Assembly: GCF_007971225.1 (NCBI RefSeq)
Contig: NZ_CP042435.1
Coordinates: 248,001 to 312,000, forward strand
DNA: 64,000 nt
DNA from: Panacibacter ginsenosidivorans
GTDB taxonomy: Bacteria; Bacteroidota; Bacteroidia; Chitinophagales; Chitinophagaceae
Reading direction: 5' to 3'
Below, one piece after another: positions 25,113 through 61,477 of the stretch (position 1 is the first letter of the stretch; each line of letters begins with the position of its first letter). The notes under the pieces are model-generated. The model worked only from the letters and a program-made list of their open reading frames with translations, was not told where the DNA came from and searched no databases. Both the position numbers and the translations under genes were made by a program.

Positions 25113-25218
25113 ACAAAAATTAATGCCACGATTTATACTTTTGTAAATCAACGGGTTGAGCAAGACTTAATGCAGGCAGTGTACGTTTTTGATACAACCA
25201 CTGTTATACTTTGATACA
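25113..25218 (-). promoter_or_regulatory. predicted sigma54-type promoter and activator sites, site A (P9-P1 unit)
   Basis: The minus strand reads TGGCATTAATTTTTGT (25128 down to 25113): a good -24 TGGCAY and a weak -12. Exactly 51 bp upstream lies the dyad TGTACGTTTTTGATACA (25180-25196, plus-strand sense), then 5 bp, then TGTTATACTTTGATACA (25202-25218). The dyad centres are 22 bp apart, on one helical face. The same spacing occurs at sites B, C and E. The probable binder is the NtrC-type regulator at 61677 (inference). Confidence 0.7.
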
Positions 25219-25304
25219 CTTCTGAAAAATGATAATGGACAATGTGAGTTTTAGTCTAAGAATCAAAAAATAAAACTAAATTAGAAACCTTAAAATTCAT
25301 CTTT

Positions 25305-25763
25305 ATGCAATCTACTGTATTAACACCAGAAGCATATATTGCGGGAGTACCTGAAGAAAGACGCGCTGTATTTTTAAAACTGCGTAACGAAATAAAAAAA
25401 AACCTGCCAAAAGGTTTCCAGGAAATAATGGGTTATGGAATGATCGGCTACGTAGTGCCCCACAAACTCTACCCTGCAGGTTATCATTGCGATCCAAAAC
25501 TTCCATTGCCATTTATGAACCTTGCTTCACAGAAAAATTTTATTGCTGTTTACCATATGGGTATTTATGCCAAACCATCTTTATTGAAATGGTTTATAGA
25601 AGAATTTGCAAAACAATCTTCTGCAAAATTAGATATGGGTAAAAGCTGCATCCGTTTTAAAAAACCAGAAAATATTCCCATAAAACTTATGGGTGAGCTG
25701 GCATCAAAAATGACAGTGGATGAATGGATAGACTGTTATGAAAAGGGCTTCAAAAGAAAATAG
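25305..25763 (+). CDS. DUF1801 family protein
   Basis: 152-residue soluble protein starting MQSTVLTPEAYIAGVPEERR. The pattern PEERRAVFLKLRNEIKKNLP, then GFQEIMGYGMIGYVVP and, later, FIAVYHMGIYA and LDMGKSCIRFKK, matches the DUF1801/YdhG-like fold, at the usual family length. Its molecular function is not established. It is the only plus-strand gene inside the permease array, divergent from P9 across promoter site A and separated from P10 by a hairpin terminator. It lies between the two arms of a split hairpin element, so it may have been inserted there. A loose Bacteroidota -7 match (TACTTTTG, 25136-25143) is 160 bp upstream. Confidence 0.85.
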   Translation: MQSTVLTPEAYIAGVPEERRAVFLKLRNEIKKNLPKGFQEIMGYGMIGYVVPHKLYPAGYHCDPKLPLPFMNLASQKNFIAVYHMGIYAKPSLLKWFIEEFAKQSSAKLDMGKSCIRFKKPENIPIKLMGELASKMTVDEWIDCYEKGFKRK

Positions 25764-25812
25764 CGTTTAACGAAAACTTCATCTCACCTATTTTCAGGTT
25801 TACATAAAAAGA

Positions 25813-25830
25813 GCCCTTTAAAAAAAGGGC
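25813..25830 (-). terminator. terminator after the P14-P10 unit
   Basis: GCCCTTT-AAAA-AAAGGGC stem. On the minus strand it is followed by TCTTTTTATG, a U-rich tail, so it should stop transcription arriving from P10 before it runs antisense into the DUF1801 gene. On the plus strand there is no U-run. Confidence 0.75.
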
Positions 25831-25890
25831 CCGTTAAGCAGAATTATTTGATTCCACTTATGAGACTTCATTAGTCGTTCATTTATAGTT

Positions 25891-25914
25891 AAGCGTACAA
25901 GAGTGCGACGCAAC
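25891..25914. repeat. hairpin element, isolated right arm (e10 right)
   Basis: Right arm AAGCGTACAAGAGTGCGACG followed by CAAC, just downstream of the P10 stop, with the standard GAAAGCTTAAT flank. Confidence 0.75.
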
Positions 25915-25955
25915 GAAAGCTTAATGTTTATTCTACATCCCGGTTCAAAAAAAAA

Positions 25956-28388
25956 TTATTCACTTCTCAAACTTTTTACCGGGTTCATCAACGCAGCTTT
26001 AATTGATTGAAAACTTATAGTGATCAATGCAATTACAATTGCTACTAATGCAGCCGCAGCTATCATCCACCAACTCATAGAAATACGGTAAGCAAAATCC
26101 TGCAACCATTTTGACATTGCCCACCATGCTACGGGTGATGCAATAACAATAGAGAATAAAACCAATTTTACAAAATCCTTTGAGAGCATAGTTGTGATGC
26201 CGCTGACGCTTGCGCCAAGCACTTTTCGAATACCGATTTCTTTATTGCGTTGCTCTGCCATAAATGCCGATAAAGCAAATAACCCAAGACACGCAATAAT
26301 GACAGCGAGCATTGCAAAACTCGTGAATATACTTCCTGTGCGTTGCACATCTGCATACATATTTGCAAAACTTTCATCAAGGAATGTATATCGGAATGGC
26401 TGATTAGGCGAAAAGTTTTTCCACACAGAAGAAACATAATTTATAGCAGTCTTTGTATCTGCACCGCTGATCTTTACAGAGATAATAGAAGAATTGTAAT
26501 TCCCCAATACAAGGCAGAGGGGTGTTACATCCTGCCGCATAGATTCGAAATTAAAATCTTCCATGACTCCTATTACGGTGAATTTTTGCCAGCCGTTTTC
26601 AATACGCTGACCAACAGGGTTTTTTAATCCGAGTTTTGTTGCCATCGTATTATTAATTACAGCAGCAGCGGAATCAGATGCCATGTCTTTTGAAAAATAT
26701 CTACCTTCAATCATATGCATGCCCATCGTTTTCAGATAGTCGTAATCTACCTGCCATTTCTGACCGCCCACACTTGGATCTTCTTTTGTTCTTCCTTCTT
26801 TCCAGAAAGGATTGCCATCCCGCTTGGTGCCTGCTATAGGCAGGTAGTCACTTATAGAAACAGTTTTTATTTCAGATGATTTCAACAACTCATTTTTAAA
26901 AGCTTCTCTTTTATCTTCGAGTGTATTTGTTCCCTGTATTAGTAATACCTGGTCTTTATCGAAGCCTATTTTTTTATTTAAGATGTATTGTGTTTGATTG
27001 TAAATAACAATTGTACCGATTATAAGAATTATTGAAGTAGTAAACTGGAATACAACCAACCCATTTCTTAGAAGAGAATTCTTACTGCCCTTACTTACCT
27101 GTCCTTTCAAAACCTGGATAGGTTTGAAAGAAGACAAATAAAATGACGGATATAAACCTGCAACAATTCCAATAATAATAGCGGCTGTAATCATTAAGGG
27201 AAGCAACCACCACGCTGCCCATGGAATAAGTAAATGCTTTGCAGCAAGCGTATTGAAATAAGGAAGCAAAATTATAGCGATTAATAAACCCAAAACAAAA
27301 GACAACACACTATAGAGCAGTGATTCAGTAAGAAATTGCTTTATCAAACTGCTGCGGTGCGAACCCACTACTTTTCGTAATCCAACTTCTTTTGCGCGGT
27401 TAGCAGATTTTGCAGTTGAAAGGTTAATAAAATTGATACACGCAATTACAAGAATAAAAACTGCAATGGCTCCAAACAACCAAACAAATCTTATATCACC
27501 TTTATCCAATCTATCATCAATATTGGCAGAGTAAAGATGTACATCTGCAATTGGTTGTATAAGAATCTTTGCATTCTTTAAAACAGTTTCTGCTTCCTTA
27601 TTACCATTTTGCCTCAATGCAGGGAGATAATATTTGGTCATTATCAATTTCAGTTTGTTTTGAAATTGAACGGGATCTGCGCCGGGCTTTAATAAAACAT
27701 AAGTAGGATAATTACTCGCCATCCATGTTGTTTGCTCGCCATCCCAAAGCTGATGACGGGTCATAGTCAACAGAAAATCATAATGAATATGAGAAGTAGC
27801 AGGAAAGTCATTTATAACGCCGCCAATCTTATAAGGGTTCTTTACATCATTATTCAGGATCATCACTTTCCCTACAGGATTCTGATTCGGAAAATATTTA
27901 TCAGCTTTGCTTTTTGAAATAACCATTGTATTCGGTTCGCTCAATGCATGCGCCCTATCACCATAAACCATTGGTATTTCCAGCATATCCAGCATATCCT
28001 GGTCTGCATAACTAAATCCTTGTTCAAAGGTATTTTGCTCTTCATCAACTTTTCTAAGCTGGTTACTGCCTGCACCATAAAACAACGGGGCATCCATAAA
28101 TCTTCCGGCCTTTTCCACCTCAGGAAAATCTTCTTTCAACGCTTTTGCCATGGGTGCAGGCCAGGCTGCACCGCTTAACATTTTTCCGTTGATATTATAC
28201 TCACCTATTATGCGATAAATACGATCAGCATTTGTCCAATTCTTATCATAACTCAATTCATCTTTTATATACAACGCAATCAATAAGCAAGCAGCAATAC
28301 TTAATGCAAAGCCGCCTATTTTAACAGCTGAATACATTCTTTGCTTACGCAATTGTCTTACTGCTATTTTGAAATAATTTTTAAACAT
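25956..28388 (-). CDS. ABC transporter permease P10
   Basis: 810 residues, start MFKNYFKIAVRQLRKQRMYS. The first helix is unusual (AVKIGGFALSIAACLLIALY), lacking the INIxGLAxG signature of the other copies. The first ectodomain continues YDKNWTNADRIYRIIGEYN. Motifs are RAKEVGLRKVVGSHR and RNKEIGIRKVLGASV; the tail is SLRSE. It is the last gene of the predicted P14-P10 unit, followed by a terminator at 25813-25830. Confidence 0.93.
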   Translation of the reverse strand: MFKNYFKIAVRQLRKQRMYSAVKIGGFALSIAACLLIALYIKDELSYDKNWTNADRIYRIIGEYNINGKMLSGAAWPAPMAKALKEDFPEVEKAGRFMDAPLFYGAGSNQLRKVDEEQNTFEQGFSYADQDMLDMLEIPMVYGDRAHALSEPNTMVISKSKADKYFPNQNPVGKVMILNNDVKNPYKIGGVINDFPATSHIHYDFLLTMTRHQLWDGEQTTWMASNYPTYVLLKPGADPVQFQNKLKLIMTKYYLPALRQNGNKEAETVLKNAKILIQPIADVHLYSANIDDRLDKGDIRFVWLFGAIAVFILVIACINFINLSTAKSANRAKEVGLRKVVGSHRSSLIKQFLTESLLYSVLSFVLGLLIAIILLPYFNTLAAKHLLIPWAAWWLLPLMITAAIIIGIVAGLYPSFYLSSFKPIQVLKGQVSKGSKNSLLRNGLVVFQFTTSIILIIGTIVIYNQTQYILNKKIGFDKDQVLLIQGTNTLEDKREAFKNELLKSSEIKTVSISDYLPIAGTKRDGNPFWKEGRTKEDPSVGGQKWQVDYDYLKTMGMHMIEGRYFSKDMASDSAAAVINNTMATKLGLKNPVGQRIENGWQKFTVIGVMEDFNFESMRQDVTPLCLVLGNYNSSIISVKISGADTKTAINYVSSVWKNFSPNQPFRYTFLDESFANMYADVQRTGSIFTSFAMLAVIIACLGLFALSAFMAEQRNKEIGIRKVLGASVSGITTMLSKDFVKLVLFSIVIASPVAWWAMSKWLQDFAYRISMSWWMIAAAALVAIVIALITISFQSIKAALMNPVKSLRSE

Positions 28389-28479
28389 GACAAGGAAACT
28401 TTAGGTTATAAAGATTGTTCTGCTGTTAAGGCTGGAATCAAAAATTTATAGACTTAGCTTTTGCTCTTTACTCATCTTC

Positions 28480-28542
28480 GTTGTGTCACTCACTTATACG
28501 TTCAGTTCATTCCTGAACAAAGCGTACAAGAGTGCGACGCAA
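28480..28542. repeat. intergenic hairpin element (e11)
   Basis: Full copy between P11 and P10. The left arm has CACTTATACG in place of CACTTGTACG. The right arm ends GCGACGCAA. Confidence 0.87.
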
Positions 28543-28602
28543 GAATGCTTAATTTTTATTTATAGCCAGGCTGATAATTCTTTTTTTATCTGCACATCCT
28601 CT

Positions 28603-31011
28603 CTATTCCGTTCTTAAACTCTTTACAGGGTTTGCAATGGCAGCTTTAATGGCCTGGAAACTTATAGTAAGAAAAGCAATAAATATAACTGCAATGCCTG
28701 CAATAGCGAATACCCATGCGGTTATATCTATCCTGTAAGCAAAATCCTGTAACCATGTATGCATTGCCCACCAGGTAACTGGAATTGAAATAAGAAAGGC
28801 TATCATTACCAGTAGTAAAAATTCTTTTGATACAAGCAGCAGCACATTTTTTACAGAAGCACCCAATACTTTTCTAATACCGATCTCTTTGGTGCGCTGT
28901 TCTATTACAAATGCAGAAAGACCAAACAGGCCAAGGCTTGCAATGATTATTGCCAAAACTGCAAACGCAGAAAATATTTGTTGTGTGTGTTCTTCACTGG
29001 CATAAAGCTTAGCAAAATTCTCATCAAGAAAATTATATTCCAAAGGCCCGTCAGGGTTAAACAAGGTCCATTGCTTTTTTAGATCGCCCAAAAATCCCTG
29101 GATATCTTTAGTATTTATTTTTACTATTAAGCCGCCAAAATTATTACCGAGCATCATCATCATAGGAGATATTTTTTGCTTAACAGAAGCATAATTGAAA
29201 TCTGCAACAACACCTACTACCTTATACTCCTGCTGCCCAGACCGTACAATTGTTTTGCCAACCGCATTGCTATTTGTCCATCCTAATTCGCGTGCAGCTT
29301 CTTCATTAATCAATACACCAGCCGAATCTGTTGAAAACGCTTTGGAGAAATCCCTTCCCTGCACAACGCGTATACCTAATGTGCGCAGATAATCATAATC
29401 TATATGATAAATGTTTGTATGAATTTCTGTACCGTTACCAGTTTCATTTTTTGGGTATATCTCTGTACCATCCATCATTATGCCACCGGGAACGTATCTT
29501 GAGATGCTCGCCGAAACTACACGACTGTCTTTCAAAATTTGTTGCTCGAATGCAAATTGATTACTACCTAATAACCTTGCATCCGGAAGATATAGAACCT
29601 GGTCTTTGTCATAACCTAATTTTTTATTCTGCATGTAATGCAACTGCTGGTAAACAATAATGGTAGCAATAATCAATGCAGTGGAAATAAAAAACTGGAA
29701 AACAATTAAACTGCTGCGCAACGGTTTTCTTTGTGAGCCTTGCAAGGAAGCTCCCTTTAAGACCTTGATGGTATTAAATGACGACAGGAAGAAAGCAGGA
29801 TAAATGCCAGCCAATATTCCTGCAATAAAACTCACGGAGAACAGTACGAGTATTGACTGCCAGCTTAGAAAAAAAATAAAGTCTATATTTTTATTTGACA
29901 GCTCATTAAAATAAGGCAATAAGAAAAATATTAACGCGTATGCGCAAAGCATAGAGAAGAATGTAAACAAAACAGATTCTGTGAGAAACTGAAAGATCAA
30001 TTGCTTTTTTATAGAACCCATTACTTTCCTGATACCGACTTCCCTTGAACGCTTTACAGCTCTTGCTGTTGAAAGGTTTGTAAAATTTACGCAGGCCAGC
30101 AACAAAATGAATATAGCTAACGCCGAAAAAATATATACATATTGTATATCGCCATTCGGTTCCAACTCATACTTTGTATTGGCATGCAAATGAATGTCTG
30201 TAACTGGTTGCAATGAAAAGCGAAATGTATTAACTGACTTCTGTGCTTCGGCAAGACTTACCCCCATATCATGCTGAACTTCCGGGACAACATATTTTGC
30301 AACAAGCTGTGGAAACTTTGCTTCTAATGCTTTAGCATTTGCATTTTTATTTAAAAGAAGATAAGTGTAAAACCCAACATTACTCCATGTTGCACGTGTG
30401 ATATGAAATGTAGTGAGGCTTAGGAATGCATCAAAATGAAAATGTGTATTGTCAGGCACTTTATCAATAACGCCGGTTACTTTATACAATGCATTGTGCA
30501 GGCCAATGGTCAATGATTTTCCAAGTGCATCCTCATTACCAAAATATTTTTTTGCAAATGCTTTTGAAATAACAACGCTGTTAGGCTGAACCAACGCAGT
30601 TTTATTATCTCCTTCAATAAGTGGAATAGAAAACATCTGCAAAAAATTTGAATCAGCAAAGGCAAGTTTTTGTTCTTTGAATTGTTTGTCATTATACTTT
30701 ACAAAATCACTTGCTGGGGAGATCCTTGTTGATGCTTTTATTTCAGGGAAAGCATTTTTCATTCCTTCGCCAACTGCCACGTCTACATTTGGATAAACAG
30801 CCACATCGCCATTTCCGGTAGCAGATAAATTAATGCGGTAAATATTGTCAGCTTCATCTGCATATTTATCGTAGCTCAACTCATCATACACAAATACAGT
30901 AATGAGCATAAAACAGGTTAGCCCGATGGCCAGTCCCACAATGTTGATGACAGAAAAAATTTTATTTTTTCTAAGATTGCGAAAAGCAATTTTTAAATAA
31001 TTTCTTATCAT
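28603..31011 (-). CDS. ABC transporter permease P11
   Basis: 802 residues, start MIRNYLKIAFRNLRKNK. The motif after TM2 is RSREVGIRKVMGSIK and the C-terminal one RTKEIGIRKVLGASV. It is closest in layout to P2: both have AxFPQLVAKYVVPEVQ/LPDMVAKYMGPQIQ in the first ectodomain and VYQQLHYMQNKKLGYD/VYQQMKFIQNKDLGFN after helix 5. The helix before the second motif is IIASLGLFGLSAFVIEQ, lacking the usual Cys. It is an orphan permease; the substrate is unknown. Confidence 0.93.
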   Translation of the reverse strand: MIRNYLKIAFRNLRKNKIFSVINIVGLAIGLTCFMLITVFVYDELSYDKYADEADNIYRINLSATGNGDVAVYPNVDVAVGEGMKNAFPEIKASTRISPASDFVKYNDKQFKEQKLAFADSNFLQMFSIPLIEGDNKTALVQPNSVVISKAFAKKYFGNEDALGKSLTIGLHNALYKVTGVIDKVPDNTHFHFDAFLSLTTFHITRATWSNVGFYTYLLLNKNANAKALEAKFPQLVAKYVVPEVQHDMGVSLAEAQKSVNTFRFSLQPVTDIHLHANTKYELEPNGDIQYVYIFSALAIFILLLACVNFTNLSTARAVKRSREVGIRKVMGSIKKQLIFQFLTESVLFTFFSMLCAYALIFFLLPYFNELSNKNIDFIFFLSWQSILVLFSVSFIAGILAGIYPAFFLSSFNTIKVLKGASLQGSQRKPLRSSLIVFQFFISTALIIATIIVYQQLHYMQNKKLGYDKDQVLYLPDARLLGSNQFAFEQQILKDSRVVSASISRYVPGGIMMDGTEIYPKNETGNGTEIHTNIYHIDYDYLRTLGIRVVQGRDFSKAFSTDSAGVLINEEAARELGWTNSNAVGKTIVRSGQQEYKVVGVVADFNYASVKQKISPMMMMLGNNFGGLIVKINTKDIQGFLGDLKKQWTLFNPDGPLEYNFLDENFAKLYASEEHTQQIFSAFAVLAIIIASLGLFGLSAFVIEQRTKEIGIRKVLGASVKNVLLLVSKEFLLLVMIAFLISIPVTWWAMHTWLQDFAYRIDITAWVFAIAGIAVIFIAFLTISFQAIKAAIANPVKSLRTE

Positions 31012-31063
31012 AAGTTATAGTTGTAATTTTTTGTACTTAACATTTGCTCTTTACTCATCGCCT

Positions 31064-31134
31064 GTTGTGTCACTCACTTGTGCGTTCTAAACTTTGCTGA
31101 GCAATGAATAAACTGTACAAGAGTGCGACGCAAC
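31064..31134. repeat. intergenic hairpin element (e12)
   Basis: Full copy between P12 and P11, with the loop variant TTTGCTGAGCAATGAATAAA. A decayed CCCCTAAA-type repeat follows at about 31138-31165. Confidence 0.85.
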
Positions 31135-31201
31135 GAAGATGACCCAACCCCTAAACGTGGGGCTAATAAAATCTTCTGCATTTTCAAGAGTTGGGAGCTT
31201 C

Positions 31202-33553
31202 TTATTCTGTTCTCAAACTCTTTACCGGGTTGCTCATAGCGACTCTTATGGTGTTCATGCATACTACAACTAACGTAAGCAGGAACATTGCTATACCAAC
31301 CAATACAAAAAGCCAGATACTAATGCTGATGCGATAATCATACTTGCTTAACCAATTGGTCATAGCCCAATAGGTTAAGGGCACCGCAATGACAAAAGCA
31401 ATTGTTACGAGTTTTAAAAATTCTTTGGATATAAGCAACAGCAACTGCTGAACACTTGCACCAAGTACTTTGCGTACACCAATTTCACGAATGCGTTTTT
31501 CGATGGTGAATGAAGCAAGGCCTGCAAGCCCAAGACAACAAATAAAAATGGCAAGACCTGAAAAAATATTCGTAAGCTTTCCTATAAGGTCTTCAGTTAA
31601 AAATTTCTTTTGAAATTCCTGGTCAACAAACTGGTACTCGAATGGTACAGTGGGATTATATTTTTTAAAGATCGTTTCAATGGATGCCATTGCTTTTTGC
31701 GGTGCAACACCATCTTTCAAACGAAGCGTATTCATAGAAGAACCGTTGCCATCATATACCATTAACATTGGATATGCGGGTTCGAATGGAGAAGTCATGA
31801 TCACATTATCTGAAACACCAATAACCGTGTAGTTTCTGCCATACCGCATTTGCATACCTACAGGGTTTTTTAGTTTCATTGCATCAACAGCAGCTTTATT
31901 CAGGATCATGGAAGTTGAATCTGCAGGTGTTCCTGAAAAATCTCTTCCCTGCAACATTTTAATGCCCATTGTTTTAGTAAAATCAACATCAACTGCAAGC
32001 CCACCCATGATGATTTGGGAATTGGCAGGTTTGCCATCATAATCAGGTGCGCCCGTATTCCACCATACTTCTGTTATTGGCGAAGATGTTCTTGTAACAT
32101 TGCTGATCAAACCCGTTGAAAGTAATTCCTGCTTTATTACGTCATAGCTTTTATCTGTATCTGGTGTAGAAGGAATCATAACAAGGTTATTGGGATTATA
32201 ACCCATATCGCGGTCTTTTACATGTTGTATTTGCTGGTAAACAATGATCGTTGCCGAGATAAGCAAAATAGAAATTACAAACTGTGACACCACGAGTATA
32301 TGCCTGGGCATAACTGTTTTCTTCCCTGAACTTAATGTTCCTTTCAAAACTTTTACAGGATTAAAAGAGGAAAGATATAATGCAGGATAACTTCCGGCTA
32401 CTAAACCGGTAAATAAAATAATGACGGTTGCAGATAACCAGAACAGTGGTTGTGTTGCATTCAATGAAAGATGTTTATCTACAAGCTGATTGAATGATGG
32501 TAATAATAGCAGCACTGCAATAATAGCAATTACAAAAGCGATCAATGTTAAGATCATTGACTCAAAGAAGAATTGCAGTATCAATCTTTTCTTGTTTGAA
32601 CCAAGGGTTTTTCTTATACCTACTTCTTTTGCACGTTTTTCACTTCTTGCAGTGGAAAGGTTCATGAAGTTGATGCATGCGATCAATAAAATGATAATTG
32701 CTATTACAGAAAATAAGTGCACATATTCTATCATGCCGCCGGTGTTTACACCATTATCAAAATCACTGTAGAGGTGCCAGTGACTCATTGGAAAAGCGAA
32801 GTATGTGCTTATCTCATCCTTGCCATGCGCTCGTTTTACTTTGGTAATTGTTTTATTCAGCAGACTTGTATCAACGTTGGGAACTGTTTGTACAAAAACA
32901 TTCCATGAAGAATTTACCCATTCACCCATTGCATTTTTTGTATCAGGATCATTGTAGTTAAAAGGCGTGATCCAATCAAACCGGAAGGTAGAATTACCCG
33001 GAGCGTCTTCAACAACTGCTGTAACTTTTACATCCTGACTGTTATCAAAACGTATTACTTTATTAATAGGGTCTTCATTTCCAAAAAAGGCTTTTGCTGC
33101 AGATTCAGAAAGTACAATCGAGTTGGGATCTTTTAATGCAGTAGCTGCACTTCCTTTGATGAATTTCCACGAGAACATATCAAAGAAGTGATCGCTTACT
33201 ATATAACCTTCTTTTTTTATTTTGTCTTCACCATGAGCAAGCACACGCTGTTGTTGGTATGTTGTAACAACTGCATGCTTTATCTGCGGAGAGCTATGTT
33301 CCAGTTCACTTGCAAGCGGAAGTACCATGCTTCTGTCTGTAAACACCTGGTTATTGAAATCGCGGTTAGCAATAACCTGATAGATATTGTCGTAGTTCTT
33401 TTGAAATTTATCATAAGTCAATTCATCATATACCCACAAAAGAATAAGCATGGTACATGTAATGCCAATTGTAAGACCTAAAATATTCGTTATAGAAAAT
33501 CCCTTGTTGCGAAATAAATTTCTCCACGCAATTTTTAAATAATTTCTTATCAT
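31202..33553 (-). CDS. ABC transporter permease P12 (shortest array member)
   Basis: 783 residues, start MIRNYLKIAWRNLFRNKGFS, the shortest paralog. The first helix ends LLWVYDELTYDKFQKNYDNI. Motifs are RAKEVGIRKTLGSNK and RIREIGVRKVLGASV. The last helix has diverged: the usual TVSFQAIKAA is replaced by VVVCMNTIRVAMSNPVKSLR. The second ectodomain has DSTSMILNKAAVDAMKLKNP, with Lys for the conserved Glu of LNETA. Otherwise intact. Confidence 0.93.
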   Translation of the reverse strand: MIRNYLKIAWRNLFRNKGFSITNILGLTIGITCTMLILLWVYDELTYDKFQKNYDNIYQVIANRDFNNQVFTDRSMVLPLASELEHSSPQIKHAVVTTYQQQRVLAHGEDKIKKEGYIVSDHFFDMFSWKFIKGSAATALKDPNSIVLSESAAKAFFGNEDPINKVIRFDNSQDVKVTAVVEDAPGNSTFRFDWITPFNYNDPDTKNAMGEWVNSSWNVFVQTVPNVDTSLLNKTITKVKRAHGKDEISTYFAFPMSHWHLYSDFDNGVNTGGMIEYVHLFSVIAIIILLIACINFMNLSTARSEKRAKEVGIRKTLGSNKKRLILQFFFESMILTLIAFVIAIIAVLLLLPSFNQLVDKHLSLNATQPLFWLSATVIILFTGLVAGSYPALYLSSFNPVKVLKGTLSSGKKTVMPRHILVVSQFVISILLISATIIVYQQIQHVKDRDMGYNPNNLVMIPSTPDTDKSYDVIKQELLSTGLISNVTRTSSPITEVWWNTGAPDYDGKPANSQIIMGGLAVDVDFTKTMGIKMLQGRDFSGTPADSTSMILNKAAVDAMKLKNPVGMQMRYGRNYTVIGVSDNVIMTSPFEPAYPMLMVYDGNGSSMNTLRLKDGVAPQKAMASIETIFKKYNPTVPFEYQFVDQEFQKKFLTEDLIGKLTNIFSGLAIFICCLGLAGLASFTIEKRIREIGVRKVLGASVQQLLLLISKEFLKLVTIAFVIAVPLTYWAMTNWLSKYDYRISISIWLFVLVGIAMFLLTLVVVCMNTIRVAMSNPVKSLRTE

Positions 33554-33605
33554 AAGTTATAGTTGTAATTTTTTGTACTTAGCATTTGTTCTTTACTCAT
33601 CGCCT

Positions 33606-33721
33606 GTTGTGTCACTCACTTGTACGTTGGTGCTTTATGCTGCTTTTAGCCGTTCACCTTTAGCTAGTAACTTGCAGCCAAATGTTAATAGTTATTCTTC
33701 AGTACAAGAGTGCGACGCAAC
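33606..33721. repeat. intergenic hairpin element with an enlarged loop (e13)
   Basis: Between P13 and P12. The left arm GTTGTGTCACTCACTTGTAC and the right arm GTACAAGAGTGCGACGCAAC are intact, but the loop is about 75 bp of unrelated sequence in place of about 22. Confidence 0.85.
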
Positions 33722-33781
33722 GATGCTTTATTGTTATTCTTCACCCTGTCTCATAAAAATTCTTTTTGAAGTTTTAAACGC

Positions 33782-36217
33782 TTATTCACTTCGCAAACTC
33801 TTTACAGGATTTGCTATTGCAGCTTTTATAGCCTGGAAACTTATTGTTGCCAATGCAATAATCAATGCAAGCAACGCAGCAATAATAAAAACCCACCATT
33901 GAATATTTATACGGTAAGCAAAATCCTGGAGCCAGTTGTACATTGCATACCATGCAACCGGGAAGGCAATAACTGCAGCAATGAGAACTAGTTTTAGAAA
34001 ATCTTTTGATAACAACGACACGATGGTAGATGTGCTTGCCCCCAGCACTTTTCTAACACCAATTTCTTTTACGCGTTGCGTAATGGCAAATGCAGATAAT
34101 CCAAATAAACCGAGACACGCTATAAATATTGCTATGCACGAAAAGATGGTAAAGATGGTGCCCTGCTTTTGTTCAGCTACATATAACTGGCTATATGTTT
34201 CATCAAGGAAAGTGGCCTGGTAAGGAACTTCAGGAAGATACTTTTTCCAGGTTTTTTCAATTGTTTTTAAAGTGCTTTGAATATTATTACCAGCAACCTG
34301 CAGTGACAGAAAATTAAAATACCCATCAGTTGCGGCATTGGCTGGATTTACCAACACCATCGGTACAATTTGTTGGTGTAATGATTCAAAATGAAAATCT
34401 TTTACAACACCAATTATTTTACCTTTTATAGATGCATACCTGAAATCTTTACCCAAAGCATCTTGCGCAGATTTCCAGCCGATGGCTTTTACCGCCGCTT
34501 CATTCAAAATAAAATTTGAAGTATCAGTTCCGTATTGTCTTGAAAAGTTTCTGCCTGCAGCAATTTGTATGTCATATGTTGAAACAAAATCATAATCAGC
34601 CACTACAAATTTTATATCTGATGTTACAGGCATTGCAGAATCTCCGGTGAATGTAGAAGCGCCCATTGCATCTAACAACCTGCCGGTTGGCACACGTGAT
34701 GAACGTGTTACATTTTTTACAGCATTACTTTGTAACAGTTCGTTCCTGAAAGTTTCGTATGATGGATTAAGGTCATTAATATAAGGAAGTGTAATGATAT
34801 GATCTTTATCATAACCCAATGAAGTGTTTTGCATATACTTCAATTGCTGGAATACAATAATGGTAGTAATAATTAAAACAATAGAAATGGTGAATTGCGC
34901 CACCACTAATATTTTCCTGAATGAAATATTGCTGCCATCGATTTTAAATAACCCTTTTAAAGTTTTAACGGGTTGAAAAGACGACATGAACAATGCAGGA
35001 TATAAGCCCGATAAGATACCCACCACAAATGGCGTTAATAATAGTGGCACAATTACCTGCCATTTTAAAAGCATCTCTACCGATAATTCAAGACCTGAAA
35101 GCTGATTCAGCAATGGCAATGTAAAATACAGAAGAGCAAATGCCATTAAAATGGCTACCCATGCAATGAGCACTGACTCACTTAAAAACTGAAAGATCAA
35201 TCCTTTTTTTCCGGCGCCCATTACTTTTCGTATACCAATTTCTCTTGCACGTAAAGCAGATCTTGCGCTTGATAAGTTCATATAATTGATACATGCAATC
35301 AATAGTATAAACAATGCAATTGCCGAGAAAATATATACACGGTTAATATCGCCATTAGGTTCAGCTTCATAATCTGTGTGAGAATATAAGTGTATGTCCG
35401 TTAATTTCTGCAGGCCGAGTGTGGTGAATTTAGAAGGAAGCTGTCCGTTGTAATCAGCACGGTTCATGTGTGCATCTATAAAGGCGGGGAAACGTGCAAC
35501 CATTTTTTGCGGATCATAATGATCGGGCAGTAGTAAGTAAGTAAAGAAAGAATTGTTACCCCAGTTGGTACGTAAGTTTTCAGCGCCATAAATTGCTGAA
35601 TCTTTCAGCGTATTAAATGAAAGCAGTGTACCCGGATGCATATGCGAATTTGCAGGAAACCCTTTATAGATACCGGTAACCTTCACATCATACTTATTAC
35701 TTACACGCAATACTTTATTTATGGGATCTTCATTGCCAAAATATTTTTTTGCAACATCTTCACTTAACATTACAGAAAAAGGATCTTTTAAAGCAGTATT
35801 GGGATCACCCTTTAAAACATCCAGTGTAAACACATTAAACAAGTTCTCGTCAGCAAAATAAACATTCGGTTCATTAATTATTTTTTCACCGTACTTAATA
35901 GCCAGCGTTCCGGTATTAAGCAAACGTGTCATTTTTTTTATTTCCGGAAAATCGCCTGGTAAATAATATCCGAATGGCGGAGAAACAGTGCTTAAGTTTA
36001 AAGACACTACACCATCCTGGTTGTTAAAAGACCTGGTAACACGATAAATATTTTCGGCATTCTTATTATACTTATCGTAACTAAGTTCATTTATAATATA
36101 CGTTGCTATCAAAAGGCAACAGGTAAGCCCAACTGTTAATCCAAATAAATTTACAAACGAGATGAACTTGTATTTCATCAAATTGCGCCACGCTATTTTG
36201 AAATAGTTTCGTATCAT
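33782..36217 (-). CDS. ABC transporter permease P13
   Basis: 811 residues, start MIRNYFKIAWRNLMKYKFIS. The first ectodomain starts YIINELSYDKYNKNAENIYR. Motifs are RAREIGIRKVMGAGK and RVKEIGVRKVLGAST; the tail is SLRSE. The second ectodomain core is DTSNFILNEAAVKAIGWKSA. The region after helix 5 reads IVFQQLKYMQNTSLGYDKDH, the conserved linker of the P2/P11/P13/P14 type. Confidence 0.93.
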   Translation of the reverse strand: MIRNYFKIAWRNLMKYKFISFVNLFGLTVGLTCCLLIATYIINELSYDKYNKNAENIYRVTRSFNNQDGVVSLNLSTVSPPFGYYLPGDFPEIKKMTRLLNTGTLAIKYGEKIINEPNVYFADENLFNVFTLDVLKGDPNTALKDPFSVMLSEDVAKKYFGNEDPINKVLRVSNKYDVKVTGIYKGFPANSHMHPGTLLSFNTLKDSAIYGAENLRTNWGNNSFFTYLLLPDHYDPQKMVARFPAFIDAHMNRADYNGQLPSKFTTLGLQKLTDIHLYSHTDYEAEPNGDINRVYIFSAIALFILLIACINYMNLSSARSALRAREIGIRKVMGAGKKGLIFQFLSESVLIAWVAILMAFALLYFTLPLLNQLSGLELSVEMLLKWQVIVPLLLTPFVVGILSGLYPALFMSSFQPVKTLKGLFKIDGSNISFRKILVVAQFTISIVLIITTIIVFQQLKYMQNTSLGYDKDHIITLPYINDLNPSYETFRNELLQSNAVKNVTRSSRVPTGRLLDAMGASTFTGDSAMPVTSDIKFVVADYDFVSTYDIQIAAGRNFSRQYGTDTSNFILNEAAVKAIGWKSAQDALGKDFRYASIKGKIIGVVKDFHFESLHQQIVPMVLVNPANAATDGYFNFLSLQVAGNNIQSTLKTIEKTWKKYLPEVPYQATFLDETYSQLYVAEQKQGTIFTIFSCIAIFIACLGLFGLSAFAITQRVKEIGVRKVLGASTSTIVSLLSKDFLKLVLIAAVIAFPVAWYAMYNWLQDFAYRINIQWWVFIIAALLALIIALATISFQAIKAAIANPVKSLRSE

Positions 36218-36292
36218 AACAATAGATTTTAATGTTGTGTATGATGTTTTAAAACTTATGTAACAGGCATTTTTGTTCTTTACTCAGCAACT

Positions 36293-36355
36293 GTTGTGTC
36301 ACTCACTTGTACGTTCAGATCAATATTGAACAAACCGTACAAGAGTGCGACGCAA
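36293..36355. repeat. intergenic hairpin element (e14)
   Basis: Well-preserved full copy between P14 and P13. The right arm ends GCGACGCAAG; the loop is TTCAGATCAATATTGAA. Confidence 0.88.
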
Positions 36356-36431
36356 GAAAAGTTTAATTCATATTAAACAGTCCGGCTCCAAAAAATCCAT
36401 CCGCAGCTCTTCACATTTGCATATCCGCACA

Positions 36432-38873: not shown

Positions 38874-38942
38874 ACAATTAATGTTGTGTTATGCATTTAG
38901 CATTTTTTTTGTGACGGGCTTTTGTAATTCTTTTTAGCGATT

Positions 38943-38962: not shown

Positions 38963-39021
38963 TTTCTTATTATTACTCATCAAACACAATCTAACAGAGC
39001 ATGAGCTAAAACAAAAATTTC

Positions 39022-49512: not shown

Positions 49513-49618
49513 GATGAATAATATGCCAATTACATATCAGTTGGTTTGCAATAAGTTAGATAACCTTATATTTTCAGGGTGTCCGCTTTCGATACAACTT
49601 TTGTTCAGTATTGATACA
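49513..49618 (-). promoter_or_regulatory. predicted sigma54-type promoter and activator sites, site B (P18-P15 unit)
   Basis: The minus strand reads TGGCATATTATTCATC (49528 down to 49513): a good -24 and a poor -12. 51 bp upstream lies TGTCCGCTTTCGATACA (49580-49596), then 5 bp, then TGTTCAGTATTGATACA (49602-49618). The order and spacing are identical to site A. The gap 49472-49787 otherwise holds only this site and the terminator. Confidence 0.68.
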
Positions 49619-50825: not shown

Positions 50826-50888
50826 GTTTGTGATTTTTTTTTGTGCGATTATTTTTTTTGACGAGCTGTTTATCATAAACTCATCTTC

Positions 50889-51262: not shown

Positions 51263-53626
51263 TTATTCCGTTCTCAAACTTCTTACAGGATTAGCAACTG
51301 CAGCTTTTATTGCCTGGTAACTTACTGTGATAATTGCGATGACAATGGATAATATTGCAGCCATTGCAAACACCCACCATTCGATTGTTACACGATAATT
51401 ATAATCCTGTAACCACGCATTCATGGCCCACCAGGAGATAGGCGCTGCAATGATGAAAGAAACTATAACCAGCTTTAGAAAATCTTTGGAGAGCAATGTG
51501 GCAATGCCTGCAACAGAAGCACCCAACACTTTGCGCACACCAATTTCCTTAATGCGATTCTCAGCCATATAGGTAGCAAGGCCAAACAAACCAAGACAGG
51601 AAATGAAAATGGTAAGCCCTGCAAACAAAGCTGCTAATGTGCCCTGGCGCTGTTCATCTTCAAATTTCTGTGCGTATTCTTCATCAACAAATTTGTATTC
51701 AAAAGGATATTCTGTATTGTATTTTTTGAAAATAGCTTCTGCTTTTTTCAGGCTCTCACCTGTTGCAACATTACTGTTGAGTTTTATAAGTATAGTTTGA
51801 AACCACGCTTTAGACCCTGCAATGAGCATAGGCCTTGTTGGTTCATAGGGTGAGGTAAGAATAAAATCTTTTATTACACCTACAATATGCCATTCCGTTC
51901 CATTGTCTTTTACGATCTTACCAATGGGATCTTTGAACTTCATTACTTTCAATGCAGATTCATTAATGATCATTCCGGTTGAATCTGTGGGAAATTTAGT
52001 AAGATCAAAATCACGGCCCTGCACAAAAGTTAAACCTGCTGTTTTACCCAATCCTTCATCTTCATTGTAACGGTAAAAATCTGTTTTATCATTTGGGTCT
52101 TTGCCTTCCCACTCCTGGCCCCATCCATCACTCCAGCTTTGTGTAAGTGGGGCACTTGTTTTTGTTACAGAAGAGGCAGCGCCTGAATTAAGCAATTCAT
52201 TTTTTATAAGGGTGTAATTTTTTTCTATATCCCCGGTAAAAAGATGATAGATCAGATTATTCTTATTATAACCGGTTTCCCTGTTCTGCGCATAATCTAT
52301 CTGTTGCTTTACAATGATGGTGCAAATGATAAGTATGATCGCAAACGTAAACTGTAATACCACCAACACCTTGCGGGGTGTAACCAATGCATTTGCTTTT
52401 TTGAATGTTCCTTTCAACACTTTAACGGGTTTAAAAGAAGAAAGGAAAAATGCAGGATAACTACCGGCAAGTACACCCGTAAAAATAATAAACCCAAGTG
52501 CTGCTAACCAGAAATAAATATTACCATATTCAATAGCAAGATGTTTATCTGTAAGACTGTTAAATGCAGGCAAAGAAATTTGTACAAGTATTACTGCAAG
52601 TATACCTGCAAGAAAAGAAAGTAAAATAGATTCTCCTATGAACTGACCGATGAGGCTTCCTTTATTTGCGCCTACTACTTTTCTTATGCCAACTTCTTTT
52701 GCACGTTTTTCACTGCGTGCCGTACTAAGGTTCATGAAGTTTATACAGGCAATCAGTAAAATAAATGCTGCAATAATGCCAAACAATTTTACAAATTCTA
52801 TTCGCCCCCCACCATCTTCTTTTCCATTTGTAAAGCTTGAATATAAACGCCATTTACTCATAGGATAAATAAACATTTCCCATTTTGGTTCATCCTTTTC
52901 ATACTTTGGTTTCAGTACTTTCAGTTTTGCATTGGCAGATGCTTCAGATGCATGCGGTTTAAGCAATACATAGGTGCGTGTGCTATTGTTGCCCCAATAT
53001 TCATCATCATCTCCGAGAAAGCGTTTATAAGACCATGGCAATAAATATTCAAAATCAAACCTGGTATCAAGCGGCAAATCTTTTACAACGCCGGTTACGG
53101 TAAAACTTTCTTTATTATCTATCTTGATCACTTTGCCCATCGGGTCTTCATTACCGTAAATTTTTCTGGCAAGTGTTTCTGTAAGCACAATGGAATGCAT
53201 ATCTTTTAATACAGTTGTAGCATTGCCTTTTACCAGCGGAAAACTAAACACCTGCAGAAAATTAGAATCAACAATATTGCCTCCAACAGTTAATCTTTTT
53301 TCGCCAATGCTAAAGAGATGATTCTGTTTCCAGTCAACTCTTACAGCCTGTTCTACTTCGGGCAGATCACGTTCCAACGTTCTTGCCAATACTTTTGGTG
53401 TAGTGTTCCAGCATTGCAGTTTGCCACTAAATTCTGCACGGTTCCACGCTTCATAAATACGGTCTTTCTTTTCATGAAACTGATCATAACTAACCTCGCT
53501 TTGTATCCACATCAAAATAAGCATAGCGCTTGCCATACCCACAGCAAGGCCCAATATATTTATTACTGAGAAACCTTTATTACGTAAAAGATTCCTGTAA
53601 GCTATTTTGAAAAAATTTTTGATCAT
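51263..53626 (-). CDS. ABC transporter permease P19, the permease cotranscribed with the ATPase
   Basis: 787 residues, start MIKNFFKIAYRNLLRNKGFS. It is the only permease next to the ATPase and adaptor, so it is the best candidate for their cognate partner. Helix 1 ends LMWIQSEVSYDQFHEKKDRI. The second ectodomain contains DSTGMIINESALKVMKFKDP. Motifs are RAKEVGIRKVVGANK and RIKEIGVRKVLGASV; the tail is NPVRSLRTE, shared only with P3. The assembled complex would resemble MacAB or LolCDE-like exporters, moving an envelope substrate rather than importing one (family knowledge; the substrate is unknown). Confidence 0.93.
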   Translation of the reverse strand: MIKNFFKIAYRNLLRNKGFSVINILGLAVGMASAMLILMWIQSEVSYDQFHEKKDRIYEAWNRAEFSGKLQCWNTTPKVLARTLERDLPEVEQAVRVDWKQNHLFSIGEKRLTVGGNIVDSNFLQVFSFPLVKGNATTVLKDMHSIVLTETLARKIYGNEDPMGKVIKIDNKESFTVTGVVKDLPLDTRFDFEYLLPWSYKRFLGDDDEYWGNNSTRTYVLLKPHASEASANAKLKVLKPKYEKDEPKWEMFIYPMSKWRLYSSFTNGKEDGGGRIEFVKLFGIIAAFILLIACINFMNLSTARSEKRAKEVGIRKVVGANKGSLIGQFIGESILLSFLAGILAVILVQISLPAFNSLTDKHLAIEYGNIYFWLAALGFIIFTGVLAGSYPAFFLSSFKPVKVLKGTFKKANALVTPRKVLVVLQFTFAIILIICTIIVKQQIDYAQNRETGYNKNNLIYHLFTGDIEKNYTLIKNELLNSGAASSVTKTSAPLTQSWSDGWGQEWEGKDPNDKTDFYRYNEDEGLGKTAGLTFVQGRDFDLTKFPTDSTGMIINESALKVMKFKDPIGKIVKDNGTEWHIVGVIKDFILTSPYEPTRPMLIAGSKAWFQTILIKLNSNVATGESLKKAEAIFKKYNTEYPFEYKFVDEEYAQKFEDEQRQGTLAALFAGLTIFISCLGLFGLATYMAENRIKEIGVRKVLGASVAGIATLLSKDFLKLVIVSFIIAAPISWWAMNAWLQDYNYRVTIEWWVFAMAAILSIVIAIITVSYQAIKAAVANPVRSLRTE

Positions 53627-54119: not shown

Positions 54120-54797
54120 TCAAATAAGAATGTTTTCCGTAACGGTTTGCCCGTCAAGCATGCGTACAATGCGGTGACTGTAACGTGCATCATGCTCACT
54201 GTGTGTAACCATTACGATAGTGGTACCCTGTTCATTCAACTCTGTAAGCAACTGCATTACTTCATTACCGTTTGATGAATCAAGATTACCGGTAGGCTCA
54301 TCCGCAAGAATTAATTTTGGATTATTTACTACTGCTCTTGCTACTGCCACACGCTGTTGCTGACCACCTGAAAGCTGCTGTGGGTAGTGGTTACGGCGGT
54401 GCATGATCTGTACTTTATCTAAAACTGCTTCTACGCGTTTCTTTCTTTCTGCAGGTTTAATGCCGGTGTAGATCAATGGCAATTCTACATTTTCAAACAC
54501 AGTCAGTTCATCAATAAGATTAAAGCTCTGGAACACAAAACCAATATTGTGTTTACGCAGATCGGCACGTTTGCGTTCGTTGAACTTTGCTACTTCAATG
54601 CCATTGAAGATAAAGCTACCTGCATCGGGATCATCCAGTAATCCAAGAATATTAAGCAGCGTAGATTTGCCGCAACCAGAAGGACCCATTACTGCAACAA
54701 ATTCTCCTTCTTTTACTTCAACAGTTAGTTTGTTTAAGGCAACAGTTTCTACTTCTTCTGTGCGATATACTTTTTCGAGGTCGGTAATTTTTATCAT
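54120..54797 (-). CDS. ABC transporter ATP-binding protein (LolD/MacB class)
   Basis: 225 residues and complete: Walker A GPSGCGKST (38-46), Q-loop Q90, signature LSGGQ (142-146), Walker B LILADE (162-167), D-loop NLD (171-173) and switch His199. The NIGFVFQSFNLIDELTVFEN segment and the HYPQQLSGGQQQRVAVARA pattern are typical of the LolD/MacB/FtsE-like class that pairs with FtsX-type permeases. It is the only ATPase in the window. It lies 50 bp downstream of the adaptor gene. It powers the export or mechanotransmission cycle of P19 and perhaps of the orphan permeases (inference). Confidence 0.95.
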   Translation of the reverse strand: MIKITDLEKVYRTEEVETVALNKLTVEVKEGEFVAVMGPSGCGKSTLLNILGLLDDPDAGSFIFNGIEVAKFNERKRADLRKHNIGFVFQSFNLIDELTVFENVELPLIYTGIKPAERKKRVEAVLDKVQIMHRRNHYPQQLSGGQQQRVAVARAVVNNPKLILADEPTGNLDSSNGNEVMQLLTELNEQGTTIVMVTHSEHDARYSHRIVRMLDGQTVTENILI

Positions 54798-54847: not shown

Positions 54848-56104
54848 TTACTTGCCTTTTAAAACTAATTCCTGCATGGTGCCATAATTCTCGTAGCTGC
54901 TGGTTACTACTTTATCTCCCGGCTCCAAACCACTGAGCACTTCATAGTAGTCAGGATTCTGATTACCCAGTTGTATATCTACTTTATACGCCGTGCTGCC
55001 ATCCTTACTTACTTTAAAGATCCAGTTGCCGCCTGTTTGCTGGTAAAAGCCGCCTTTAGCCAGTAACAGGGATTGTCTTTCATCGCTCAGTGCCAATAAT
55101 ATCTGCAGTGTTTGTCCGCGGCGAATACCATCCGGCACTTTACCGGTAAATATCATATCTACCTGGAAACGGCCATTCACTACCTGCGTATATACTTTCT
55201 TTATGATCAGTTCATATGTTTTACCGGCGAAATCGAAGTGACCTTTCAGACCTGCGTAAATACGGGAAATGTAATGTTCATCTACGTCTACACGCACTTT
55301 GTAACCACCCACTACATCCAGCTGGCCAAGTCTTTCGCCTTTGTTTTTATTTTGACCAACCTCTGCATCAAGTGATGTAAGTTGTCCGTCAACCGGTGCA
55401 CGCACTATCAGGTCTCCTACTTTTTCACGCATTACAGCCAATGCATTTTGAGAGCCTTCATAAGATTGCTGTGCCTGTGTTAACTGTTGCTGATTGGAAA
55501 CTGAATCCTGTTTCAGTATCTGCTCAGTAAGCTTCTTTTTTTGCAGGTAATAATTGTAATCATTTTCTGCTTTCTTGTATTCCTGCGAGCCGATTGCTTT
55601 CTGATCGTACAGGTGTTTATCCAGCAGGTAAACACGTTCCGCTTCTTTCAACTGGCTTTCCGCATCAGTCATCTGGTTCAGTTTATTAACCGTATTTTGT
55701 TGCGCTGCATTTCTTGAAATCTGCATTTGCGTAAGCAGGTTATATACAGAAGTTTCCTGGTTCACCAGGTTAAGCTGAAGATCTGTGTTACTTAATTTTA
55801 AAATAGGCTGGCCTTTTTTCATTACTGCACCATCTTCCACATATTTTTCTTCCACACGCCCACCTTCCACTGCATCCAGGTATATGGTCGTTTCAGGCAG
55901 TACTATACCATTTACGGGAATTGTTTCCTGGAACACACCTTTCTTTACTTCACTGATGGTAATACGTTCAGTATCCACATTAAGTTTGCTGCCACCGGAA
56001 GTGTAATAATAACTTGCAATGATCAAACCTGCTAAAGCCGCAATACCCACTATCGTCAGTATCCGTTTTTTGGTCCATGTCTTTTTTTCAATTACTCTAT
56101 CCAC
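54848..56104 (-). CDS. periplasmic adaptor (HlyD/MacA-type membrane fusion protein)
   Basis: 418 residues. N-terminal inner-membrane anchor (about 14-34), then the lipoyl/barrel-sandwich half VEEKYVEDGAVMKKGQPILK, a long alpha-helical hairpin rich in Gln (about 110-225), and the second barrel half IVRAPVDGQLTSLDAEVGQ. A beta-barrel and membrane-proximal domain ends in LEPGDKVVTSSYENYGTM. Length and order are those of MacA-like adaptors, which bridge an ABC permease to an outer-membrane TolC channel. No TolC gene is in the window. It is the first gene of the ATPase unit, about 300 bp downstream of promoter site C. Confidence 0.93.
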   Translation of the reverse strand: MDRVIEKKTWTKKRILTIVGIAALAGLIIASYYYTSGGSKLNVDTERITISEVKKGVFQETIPVNGIVLPETTIYLDAVEGGRVEEKYVEDGAVMKKGQPILKLSNTDLQLNLVNQETSVYNLLTQMQISRNAAQQNTVNKLNQMTDAESQLKEAERVYLLDKHLYDQKAIGSQEYKKAENDYNYYLQKKKLTEQILKQDSVSNQQQLTQAQQSYEGSQNALAVMREKVGDLIVRAPVDGQLTSLDAEVGQNKNKGERLGQLDVVGGYKVRVDVDEHYISRIYAGLKGHFDFAGKTYELIIKKVYTQVVNGRFQVDMIFTGKVPDGIRRGQTLQILLALSDERQSLLLAKGGFYQQTGGNWIFKVSKDGSTAYKVDIQLGNQNPDYYEVLSGLEPGDKVVTSSYENYGTMQELVLKGK

Positions 56105-56394: not shown

Positions 56395-56500
56395 ATAAAG
56401 AGTAGTGCCAGAAAATTATACATTGAAAAACAGGCAGTTATATTTTATTACAAATAGCAGGTGTACGGTTTTGATACAATTTGTGTGCGGTAGTGTAACA
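56395..56500 (-). promoter_or_regulatory. predicted sigma54-type promoter and activator sites, site C (adaptor-ATPase unit)
   Basis: The minus strand reads TGGCACTACTCTTTAT (56410 down to 56395): a perfect -24, with -12 only TT conserved. 51 bp upstream lies TGTACGGTTTTGATACA (56462-56478), then 5 bp, then the weaker TGTGCGGTAGTGTAACA (56484-56500). It leads into a leader of about 290 nt before the HlyD-type gene. Confidence 0.7.
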
Positions 56501-61060: not shown

Positions 61061-61063
61061 TTT

Positions 61064-61084
61064 CGGTTGGTGGGACACCAACCG
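61064..61084. repeat. REP-type hairpin after the transposase
   Basis: A perfect stem, CGGTTGGTG-GGA-CACCAACCG, 3 bp after the stop codon and at the junction with the duplicated transposase segment. Its CGGTTGGTG arm recurs at the start of each upstream tandem unit (units 1 and 3; unit 2 reads CGGTTGGGGTG), suggesting it is the cognate REP. Confidence 0.8.
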
Positions 61085-61091
61085 ACAGAAA

Positions 61092-61304
61092 AATGAAAGT
61101 CCCGCAGAAAGTTTCTCTGAGTTTACAGCACATCAGTTCAAAAAGTATCTGGCAAAAGACAAAACACTCCTTATTCAATATAAAAGTAAAAAAGAAGATA
61201 GAGATTATCAATTCTGGAAAAGAGACCCGCTTGCAGTTCCAGTCAGTCCTGATAATATATTAATTGATAAACTGCACTACATTCATCATAACCCTGTAAA
61301 ACCT
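61092..61304 (+). pseudogene. duplicated internal fragment of the RAYT gene
   Basis: 213 bp nearly identical to 60743-60955 of the transposase gene, with a handful of substitutions and no indel. It lacks both the HUH motif and the C-terminus. It abuts the REP hairpin on one side and chromosomal sequence at 61305 on the other. Confidence 0.85.
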
Positions 61305-61323
61305 GGTATTAATGGCGCCACCT

Positions 61324-61343
61324 GTTGCGTCGCACACTTGTAC
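61324..61343. repeat. array-type hairpin element, isolated left arm (e22 left)
   Basis: GTTGCGTCGCACACTTGTAC, 20 bp from the end of the transposase fragment. Same family as the permease junction elements. Confidence 0.8.
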
Positions 61344-61371
61344 TGCAACAATAATATTCTGCATTCATCAC

Positions 61372-61477
61372 TGTACGCTTTCGATACATTACTGTACGCA
61401 AATGCAACAAAACAAAAAGGCATGTTTTATATAAAGCTCTCATTATCATATTTTTTTATCTTGGTATGTTAATAGTA
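61372..61477 (+). promoter_or_regulatory. predicted activator sites and sigma54-type promoter of the regulator gene, site D
   Basis: Two dyads, TGTACGCTTTCGATACA (61372-61388) and TGTACGCAAATGCAACA (61393-61409), 4 bp apart. 52 bp further on the plus strand is TGGTATGTTAATAGTA (61462-61477), a fair -24/-12 match. This suggests the regulator controls its own gene, about 200 bp downstream. The dyads also sit 51 bp from GCGCCA on the other side, so a minus-strand role is not excluded. Confidence 0.6.

Follow-up and report, generated by a model that had tools for sequence, protein, structure and literature searches.

Activators of sigma54-dependent transcription are described, in passages of PMC7057263, as binding about 100-150 bp upstream of their promoters and looping to them, often with the integration host factor (IHF). 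For Bacteroidia, sigma54 control of the FtsX-like permeases (COG0577) has been predicted and, in excerpts of the paper concerned, called first evidence (PMC12316311). The window considered here, i.e., the whole stretch of 64,000 nucleotides analysed (G000:C1:248001-312000), belongs to the 5.53-Mb, one-contig genome of Panacibacter ginsenosidivorans and contains 19 large MacB_PCD/FtsX permease genes, all on the minus strand, together with genes for a HlyD-type adaptor, an ATP-binding cassette (ABC) ATPase and a two-component system. Five intergenic sites of the window, A to E, consist of two tandem dyads and, at a near-constant distance, a TGGCAY-type element. As judged from sequence comparison, the dyad pairs are very probably the operator of the NtrC-type response regulator (RR) encoded from position 61677, which would activate sigma54 promoters.

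Dyad sites and the response regulator

Two 17-bp dyads with a 5-bp gap, 51 bp away from TGGCAY, were described in the initial annotation, and this arrangement is exact at sites A, B and C. The single 16-bp dyad noted there for site E proves to be the proximal one (39089-39104), the distal dyad (39110-39126) being of 17 bp, with 51 bp left to TGGCAT; site D has the 4- and 52-bp spacings ascribed to it, with an element that reads TGGTAT and not TGGCAY. The fixed distance of 51 bp stands at A, E, B and C but not in the relatives, where 50-54 bp separate the dyads from TGGCAY. The other permease junctions had been said to lack TGGCAY, which holds on the coding strand of the 22 junctions between 4182 and 56620, where the hexamer occurs at A, E, B and C and once more in the 24950-25956 junction. 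Counterparts are present in the relative G001: at L036:6382 for site A, likewise adjoining DUF1801, at L035:10346 for site B, at L035:3757 for site C, with an identical dyad pair, and in L036 for site E, in the same form.

Such geometry had been considered hard to get by chance, and the recovery of all five sites by a hold-out profile bears this out. The profile was sequence-only and drew on seven genomes, which together supplied ten sites and include neither the window genome nor its genus mate; on the 5.5-Mb genome it gave 11 matches up to E=5, among them all five window sites, with E-values from 2.2e-8 at C to 0.049 at E (Table 1), those of A and E over part of the profile. The position weight matrix (PWM), applied also to the relatives' and the named loci, gives 27-33 bits for A-D, which are not independent values because it was trained on the window sites. 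Site E taken alone appears weak by sequence, since its 11.5 bits by PWM are reached about twice in each Markov copy of the window (30 copies, best 18.9), and this counts against the proposal at that site. As the genome searches scored no more than 150 or 64 first-look candidates per genome, a part of the total, and the 98-genome survey applied stricter filters, the match counts are lower bounds. A profile scan of the genome and its relatives, akin to the matrix scan proposed in the initial annotation, recovered the five sites and found the motif confined to the family genomes that carry the RR (RR+).

Clear RR orthologs, 93% to 56% identical, occur in nine of the 28 relatives searched, and the interval between the divergent RR and HlyD genes has the same kind of dyad pair in eight of these nine by PWM; the ninth, G007, with the RR of 56% identity, is missed by the PWM, but its pair, though diverged, is there, the spacer being of 4 bp and TGGCAT standing 53 bp away. 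Among 98 family genomes, with the RR called at E<=1e-130 and the profile at E<=1e-3, the motif was present in at least 42 of the 46 RR+ genomes versus 0 of the 52 genomes without a called RR (RR-; Fisher 1.7e-23), and in 35 of 39 versus 0 of 52 when the seven profile-source genomes were set aside (Fisher 4.5e-21). All four RR+ genomes missed by the profile (G052, G061, G066 and G007) have dyad pairs at the RR, which in the first three adjoin it with 17-24 bits and TGGCAY at 50-52 bp. Against this co-occurrence it must be set that common ancestry and the permease expansion itself are both confounders. In named genomes with RR orthologs of >=72% identity (n=80, ranging over Parafilimonas, Niastella and as far as Mucilaginibacter), 68 of the 80 loci have a dyad pair of >=18 bits within 1.2 kb upstream of the RR, the upstream sequence being too short at one of the 80. 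On the HlyD side, 64 of these 68 pairs are followed by TGGCAY at 50-54 bp. The assignment of the dyads to the RR at 61677, predicted at the outset, is supported as a putative operator link by the 42 of 46 versus 0 of 52.

Target genes and promoter elements

The sites taken further were 23 matches away from the RR loci, selected from a longer list that covers the window genome plus eight relatives, of which six are profile sources, all 21 listed matches of G096 and G067, neither of which is in the profile, and one of the nine of G041. Their gene labels rest on tblastn against the window proteins, and an ATPase unlike these beside a solitary permease could therefore be missed. In G096 and G067, 20 of the 21 matches precede a MacB/FtsX permease, a HlyD gene or an ABC ATPase, the exception being L184. 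Outside the RR-HlyD locus, 17 of the 19 matches in these two genomes start with a permease, and 13 of the 17 permeases are solitary, i.e., no further permease without its own site stands behind them; a weak ATPase match (28-31%) accompanies two of the 13, lying 3 kb downstream in one case and upstream of the site in the other. Cluster-type genes follow 17 of the 23 selected matches, namely 11 permeases, five ABC ATPases (among them that of L178, whose strand is the reverse of the one the model expects) and one LiaG-like gene, and an OEP gene is found behind one ABC gene of the regulon (L162). Since the same code precedes many scattered MacB/FtsX-type permeases in the relatives, one two-component system would run a genome-wide permease regulon, and the predicted regulon extends far outside the window cluster.

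Some further proteins were observed behind profile matches. At L163, L164, L168 and L169, in both genomes of the genus, dyad-like sites that lack TGGCAY at the usual distance stand before small paralogous proteins (PVEK...FA(L/F)YK), and a second shared motif follows; at L201:1234-2424 and L184:2960-4129 there are a Beta-lactamase domain (PF00144) protein and a baeRF-family protein.

Promoter anatomy was derived from two sets. The main set, 86 distinct TGGCAY promoters, is non-independent, being composed mostly of orthologous HlyD promoters with a few from the RR side; the letters TGGCAY/TGGTAY were required when it was collected, so that their conservation is no evidence, and T12, G14 and TTG-N5-CAA are what counts. 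Its dyads stand 50-54 bp from TGGCAY (51 or 52 bp in 71 of the 86), and T12 amounts to 97%. The second set is more independent and comprises 35 sites away from the RR-HlyD region (16 of the 23 and 19 of the other 22 described above), 34 of them before transporter genes (L184 is not) and two, L182 and L192, in or near the main arrays; its spacings of 49-55 bp were counted from the end of the profile match, possibly a base or two beyond the dyad. The core GG[CT]A[CT] is present in 33 of the 35 (GG and A5 being preconditions of the search), with T12 in 31 and G14 in 21 of these 33. The spacing of G14 is that of the G in the canonical sigma54 -12 element.

A fourth element, absent from the earlier description, is TTG-N5-CAA, which lies between the dyads and the promoter at about -23 to -13 from TGGCAY. 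With at most one mismatch it was found in 59 of the 86 main-set promoters versus about 11 in shuffled sequences, and in 22 of the 33 promoters of the second set versus 1.8. The element loosely resembles an IHF site: an IHF consensus, with at most two mismatches allowed, is matched on the coding strand by 43 of the 86 (about 17 when shuffled) and on the other strand by 13, and the genome has two genes of the HU/IHF family.

On the RR side, pairs with the 4-bp spacer of site D recur in G001 and G014. The direction of site D is not fixed by geometry alone, because a reading of its minus strand, which points into a decayed repeat, finds TGGCGC at 51 bp, too. Many loci show TGGTATAATTG-like sequences facing the RR at about 52-56 bp from the dyads, and a scan that ignored the TGG letters found this RR-side element in 52 of the 68 loci. 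At least five of the six fixed letters of the Bacteroidota sigmaA -7 box TAnnTTTG, given in excerpts of PMC7366714 as that of sigmaABfr, are present in 46 of the 52 but only four of six at site D of the window, and GG is absent from some credible elements (L059, L084). The TGG stands ahead in 43 and G14 in 49 of the 52, which would also fit sigma54, and a plain sigmaA promoter at site D was dropped on these counts. The site D promoter may thus be of the housekeeping (sigmaA) type, of the sigma54 type, or both. Of the earlier claim that all five sites fire sigma54 promoters, the part that stands concerns TGGCAY with a T-rich -12, which looks sigma54-like; site D may be of either type.

Several further findings weigh against an RR-bound operator at sigma54 promoters. 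The -12 element, flagged as weak from the beginning, is indeed so: TTGC at the canonical N5 spacing occurs in none of the 86 main-set promoters, TTG stands one base nearer (N4) in 25 of them, and sites A and C have TTT at -12. The loop of the RR reads GAFTDA instead of GAFTGA in 85 of 89 orthologs. Six of the 23 selected matches (L163, L164 twice, L168, L169 and L172b) are not before cluster-type genes, four of them preceding the small paralogous proteins without TGGCAY at the expected place; L184 and L201 (G041) are not before transporter genes, and TGGYAY is missing from the expected place in L178 and L193. It could be supposed from the absent N5-TTGC, the GAFTDA loop and the sigmaA-like RR-side element of most loci that the RR binds the dyads but fires sigmaA or other promoters, TGGCAY being a different conserved contact without sigma54. 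This is unlikely: among the 33 promoters of the second set, 31 have T12 and 21 have G14 at the canonical sigma54 spacing from GG, the RR contains a Sigma54_activat domain (221 bits), and the genome has an rpoN (one Sigma54_AID match above the cut-off).

The identity of the binder is complicated, to the same disadvantage, by a paralogous RR, 44% identical (G000:C1:4074491-4075840) and accompanied by its own ABC/permease genes. Its recognition helix is nearly the same (TRSALYRRL vs TRTALYRRL, read by eye in 13 C-termini), and its cluster (L034 near 16101) has a 16-bp dyad, TGTCCGGTATCGAACA, which a hand count places 51 bp from TGGCAC; the operator is therefore possibly not exclusive to the RR at 61677, and exclusive use by one RR was dropped. 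That the dyads are bound mainly by this paralog, or by some unrelated factor, is nevertheless quite improbable, as the profile tracks the RR ortholog among the 98 genomes and 68 of the 80 named loci have a strong site immediately before the RR gene.

Hairpins and neighbouring features

In most permease junctions there is a hairpin of about 62 bp with imperfect pairing (TTGTGTCACTCAC ... GTGCGACGCAA); the folding energy of one copy is -29.6 kcal/mol. The end motif GTGCGACGCAA has 24 exact copies in the window, on either strand (e.g., 36345-36355 and 46978-46988), and it was counted 1,690 times in the genome, 924 times in the genus mate, 172 times in G005 and no more than 82 times in any of the 26 remaining relatives of the search. 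This junction hairpin possibly belongs to a repetitive extragenic palindromic (REP)-like family; CGTC repeats are reported in Bacteroidetes in a part of PMC3733652.

Hairpins touch the dyads themselves at two places. The proximal dyad of site E lies inside a perfect hairpin of 11 bp with a T run behind it, and a G001 site (L036 around 2130-2160) has dyad and terminator hairpin merged as well, before another co-directional permease and, by hand count, 51 bp from TGGCAC. The hairpin dyad of site E may be the terminator of the upstream gene and the operator of the downstream gene at once. These two perfect hairpins with T runs, together with the position of D and E between the halves of the abundant repeat, would favour an origin of the dyads as repeat-element or terminator hairpins without operator function, which is extremely unlikely: a dyad-containing hairpin with a T run was found in 0 of 92 promoters of the main set (site E and the G001 site are outside that set), the dyad-TGGCAY distance is near-fixed before different genes in many genera, and the repeat end motif is rare or absent in most dyad-carrying relatives. 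The dyads were also rejected as a part of the abundant hairpin repeat, from which they differ in sequence and distribution, though D and E sit between its halves.

The features of the window are collected in Table 1. The synteny of the histidine kinase and RR genes with the HlyD, ABC and permease genes is kept in the nine relatives compared. LiaG-like homologs occur in G001 and G017, and in G014 directly behind a dyad site (L170 near 3450). The HlyD-RR interval of the window holds, at 56620-58845, a DUF6266 gene and a phage-type integrase, HlyD and RR being neighbouring divergent genes in the nine relatives. Beside site D, the stretch 59818-61304 contains direct repeats, three of them of about 260 bp and another two of 213 bp, around the open reading frame (ORF) 60518-61060, which has no Pfam match and which we take to resemble a decayed REP-associated transposase (RAYT motif). 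The Rfam search gave 0 matches in the window at gathering scores.

Table 1. Positions of the dyad sites, promoter elements and genes within the window
Feature	Position	Strand	Evidence
Site A, tandem dyads (17-5-17), before permease 22500-25010	25180..25218	-	Hold-out E=6e-3 (partial profile)
Site A, putative -24 element TGGCAT, 51 bp from dyads	25123..25128	-	Sequence
Site A, TTGATTTACAA element (TTG-N5-CAA type)	25141..25151	-	Sequence
Site B, tandem dyads (17-5-17), before permease 47048-49471	49580..49618	-	Hold-out E=3.2e-6
Site B, putative -24 element TGGCAT, 51 bp from dyads	49523..49528	-	Sequence
Site B, TTGCAAACCAA element (TTG-N5-CAA type)	49541..49551	-	Sequence
Site C, tandem dyads (17-5-17), before HlyD	56462..56500	-	Hold-out E=2.2e-8
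Site C, putative -24 element TGGCAC, 51 bp from dyads	56405..56410	-	Sequence
Site C, TTG-N5-CAA-like element CTGTTTTTCAA	56423..56433	-	Sequence
Site D, tandem dyads, 4-bp spacer, upstream of RR	61372..61409	+	Hold-out E=7.6e-4
RR-side TGGTAT, 52 bp from site D dyads; sigmaA-like -7 region or sigma54 -24	61462..61467	+	Sequence
Site E, dyads, 5-bp spacer, before permease 36432-38873	39089..39126	-	Hold-out E=0.049 (partial profile)
Site E, putative -24 element TGGCAT, then AAGCGTTGG	39032..39037	-	Sequence
Terminator-like hairpin holding site E proximal dyad; 11-bp arms and T run	39078..39110	-	-15.9 kcal/mol, 10-bp-arm core
Permease array, 18 long ORFs, 783-836 aa, MacB_PCD/FtsX	1687..49471	-	ORF list; one Pfam-scanned; MacB_PCD matches across range
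LiaG-like protein, 362 aa, recurs with regulon	49788..50876	-	NCBIfam 61.6 bits, cut-off 285 (weak)
MacB_PCD/FtsX permease, first of array	51263..53626	-	Domain scan
ABC ATPase, DarD/LolD/MacB-like	54120..54797	-	Domain scan, NCBIfam
Periplasmic adaptor, HlyD/MacA-type	54848..56104	-	Domain scan, NCBIfam
RR/sigma54 activator; Response_reg, Sigma54_activat, HTH_8; GAFTDA loop	61677..63038	+	Pfam
Histidine kinase start, adjoins RR, extends beyond window	63394..64000	+	ORF, comparison with relatives

Proposed mechanism and known systems

From these regularities we infer binding of the RR, use of sigma54 and bending of the DNA. Two RR dimers would occupy the two 17-bp dyads (consensus TGTATC-N5-CGTACA), whose centres are 22 bp apart, so that both dimers would face one side of the helix; with TGGCAY taken as the -24 element, the dyads would span about -78 to -116. 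Upon a signal from the neighbouring histidine kinase, the bound RR would contact the RNA polymerase-sigma54 at TGGCAY-N4/5-TT(G), the contact being aided by a bend at or near TTG-N5-CAA, 12 bp upstream of TGGCAY. The HlyD-ABC operon would be switched on via site C and the permease units via A, B and E; as to the signal, our guess is envelope stress or a toxic compound.

The counts of MacB_PCD first-look candidates, which are stretches, often two per duplicated permease, and not genes, run from 8 to 112 among the 46 RR+ genomes (median 31) and from 3 to 8 among the 52 RR- ones (median 5). As the RR is found where the family has expanded, and the solitary permeases share the operator of the HlyD-ATPase operon, one engine for many permeases is suggested: the RR-induced HlyD-ATPase pair together with tens of orphan duplicated permeases, exchanging on one ATPase, might form a combinatorial exporter panel, a tentative view that we hold with somewhat less than even confidence.

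With the NtrC/ZraR/AtoC-type sigma54 systems the locus shares a REC-AAA+-HTH_8 activator adjoining a kinase, upstream tandem dyads, a putative -24/-12 promoter and a conserved element between them (cf. the IHF sites). It differs in the weak -12, in GAFTDA, in the near-fixed distance between operator and TGG across promoters and genera, and in targets that are almost only MacB/FtsX permeases and one HlyD-ATPase pair. The MacAB-TolC and DarBCD exporters likewise have a HlyD-type adaptor, a separate ABC ATPase and a MacB-like permease, but here the permeases are duplicated proteins of about 800 aa, which occur in tens and mostly without an adjoining ATPase, and the scores lie below the NCBIfam equivalog cut-offs of DarBCD (DarC 167.5/450, DarD 298/375, DarB 145/700). 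The ADOP duplicated permeases (TIGR03434) gave the best NCBIfam match, over the full length, of the one permease tested, at 338 bits against a subfamily cut-off of 622; unlike them, the present permeases stand under an operator that an ATPase-adaptor operon has as well.

PMC12316311 likewise predicts that members of this permease family are under sigma54 in Bacteroidota; its excerpts name no activator, operator or regulon, and the main text has no words that begin with Chitinophag or MacB. Literature searches gave no paper on this regulon among the matches listed. Many Chitinophagaceae genomes contain tens of MacB/FtsX-like permeases of unknown use, and a single operator marking these, with a regulator present almost exactly where the family has expanded, would turn them into one system with a testable switch. 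The sites also offer a well-defined geometry of enhancer and promoter for sigma54 in Bacteroidota, and the regulator a way to search for the signal and the substrates. The class of mechanism is known from the NtrC-type systems; the regulon, its operator and the tie to the permease expansion appear to be new.

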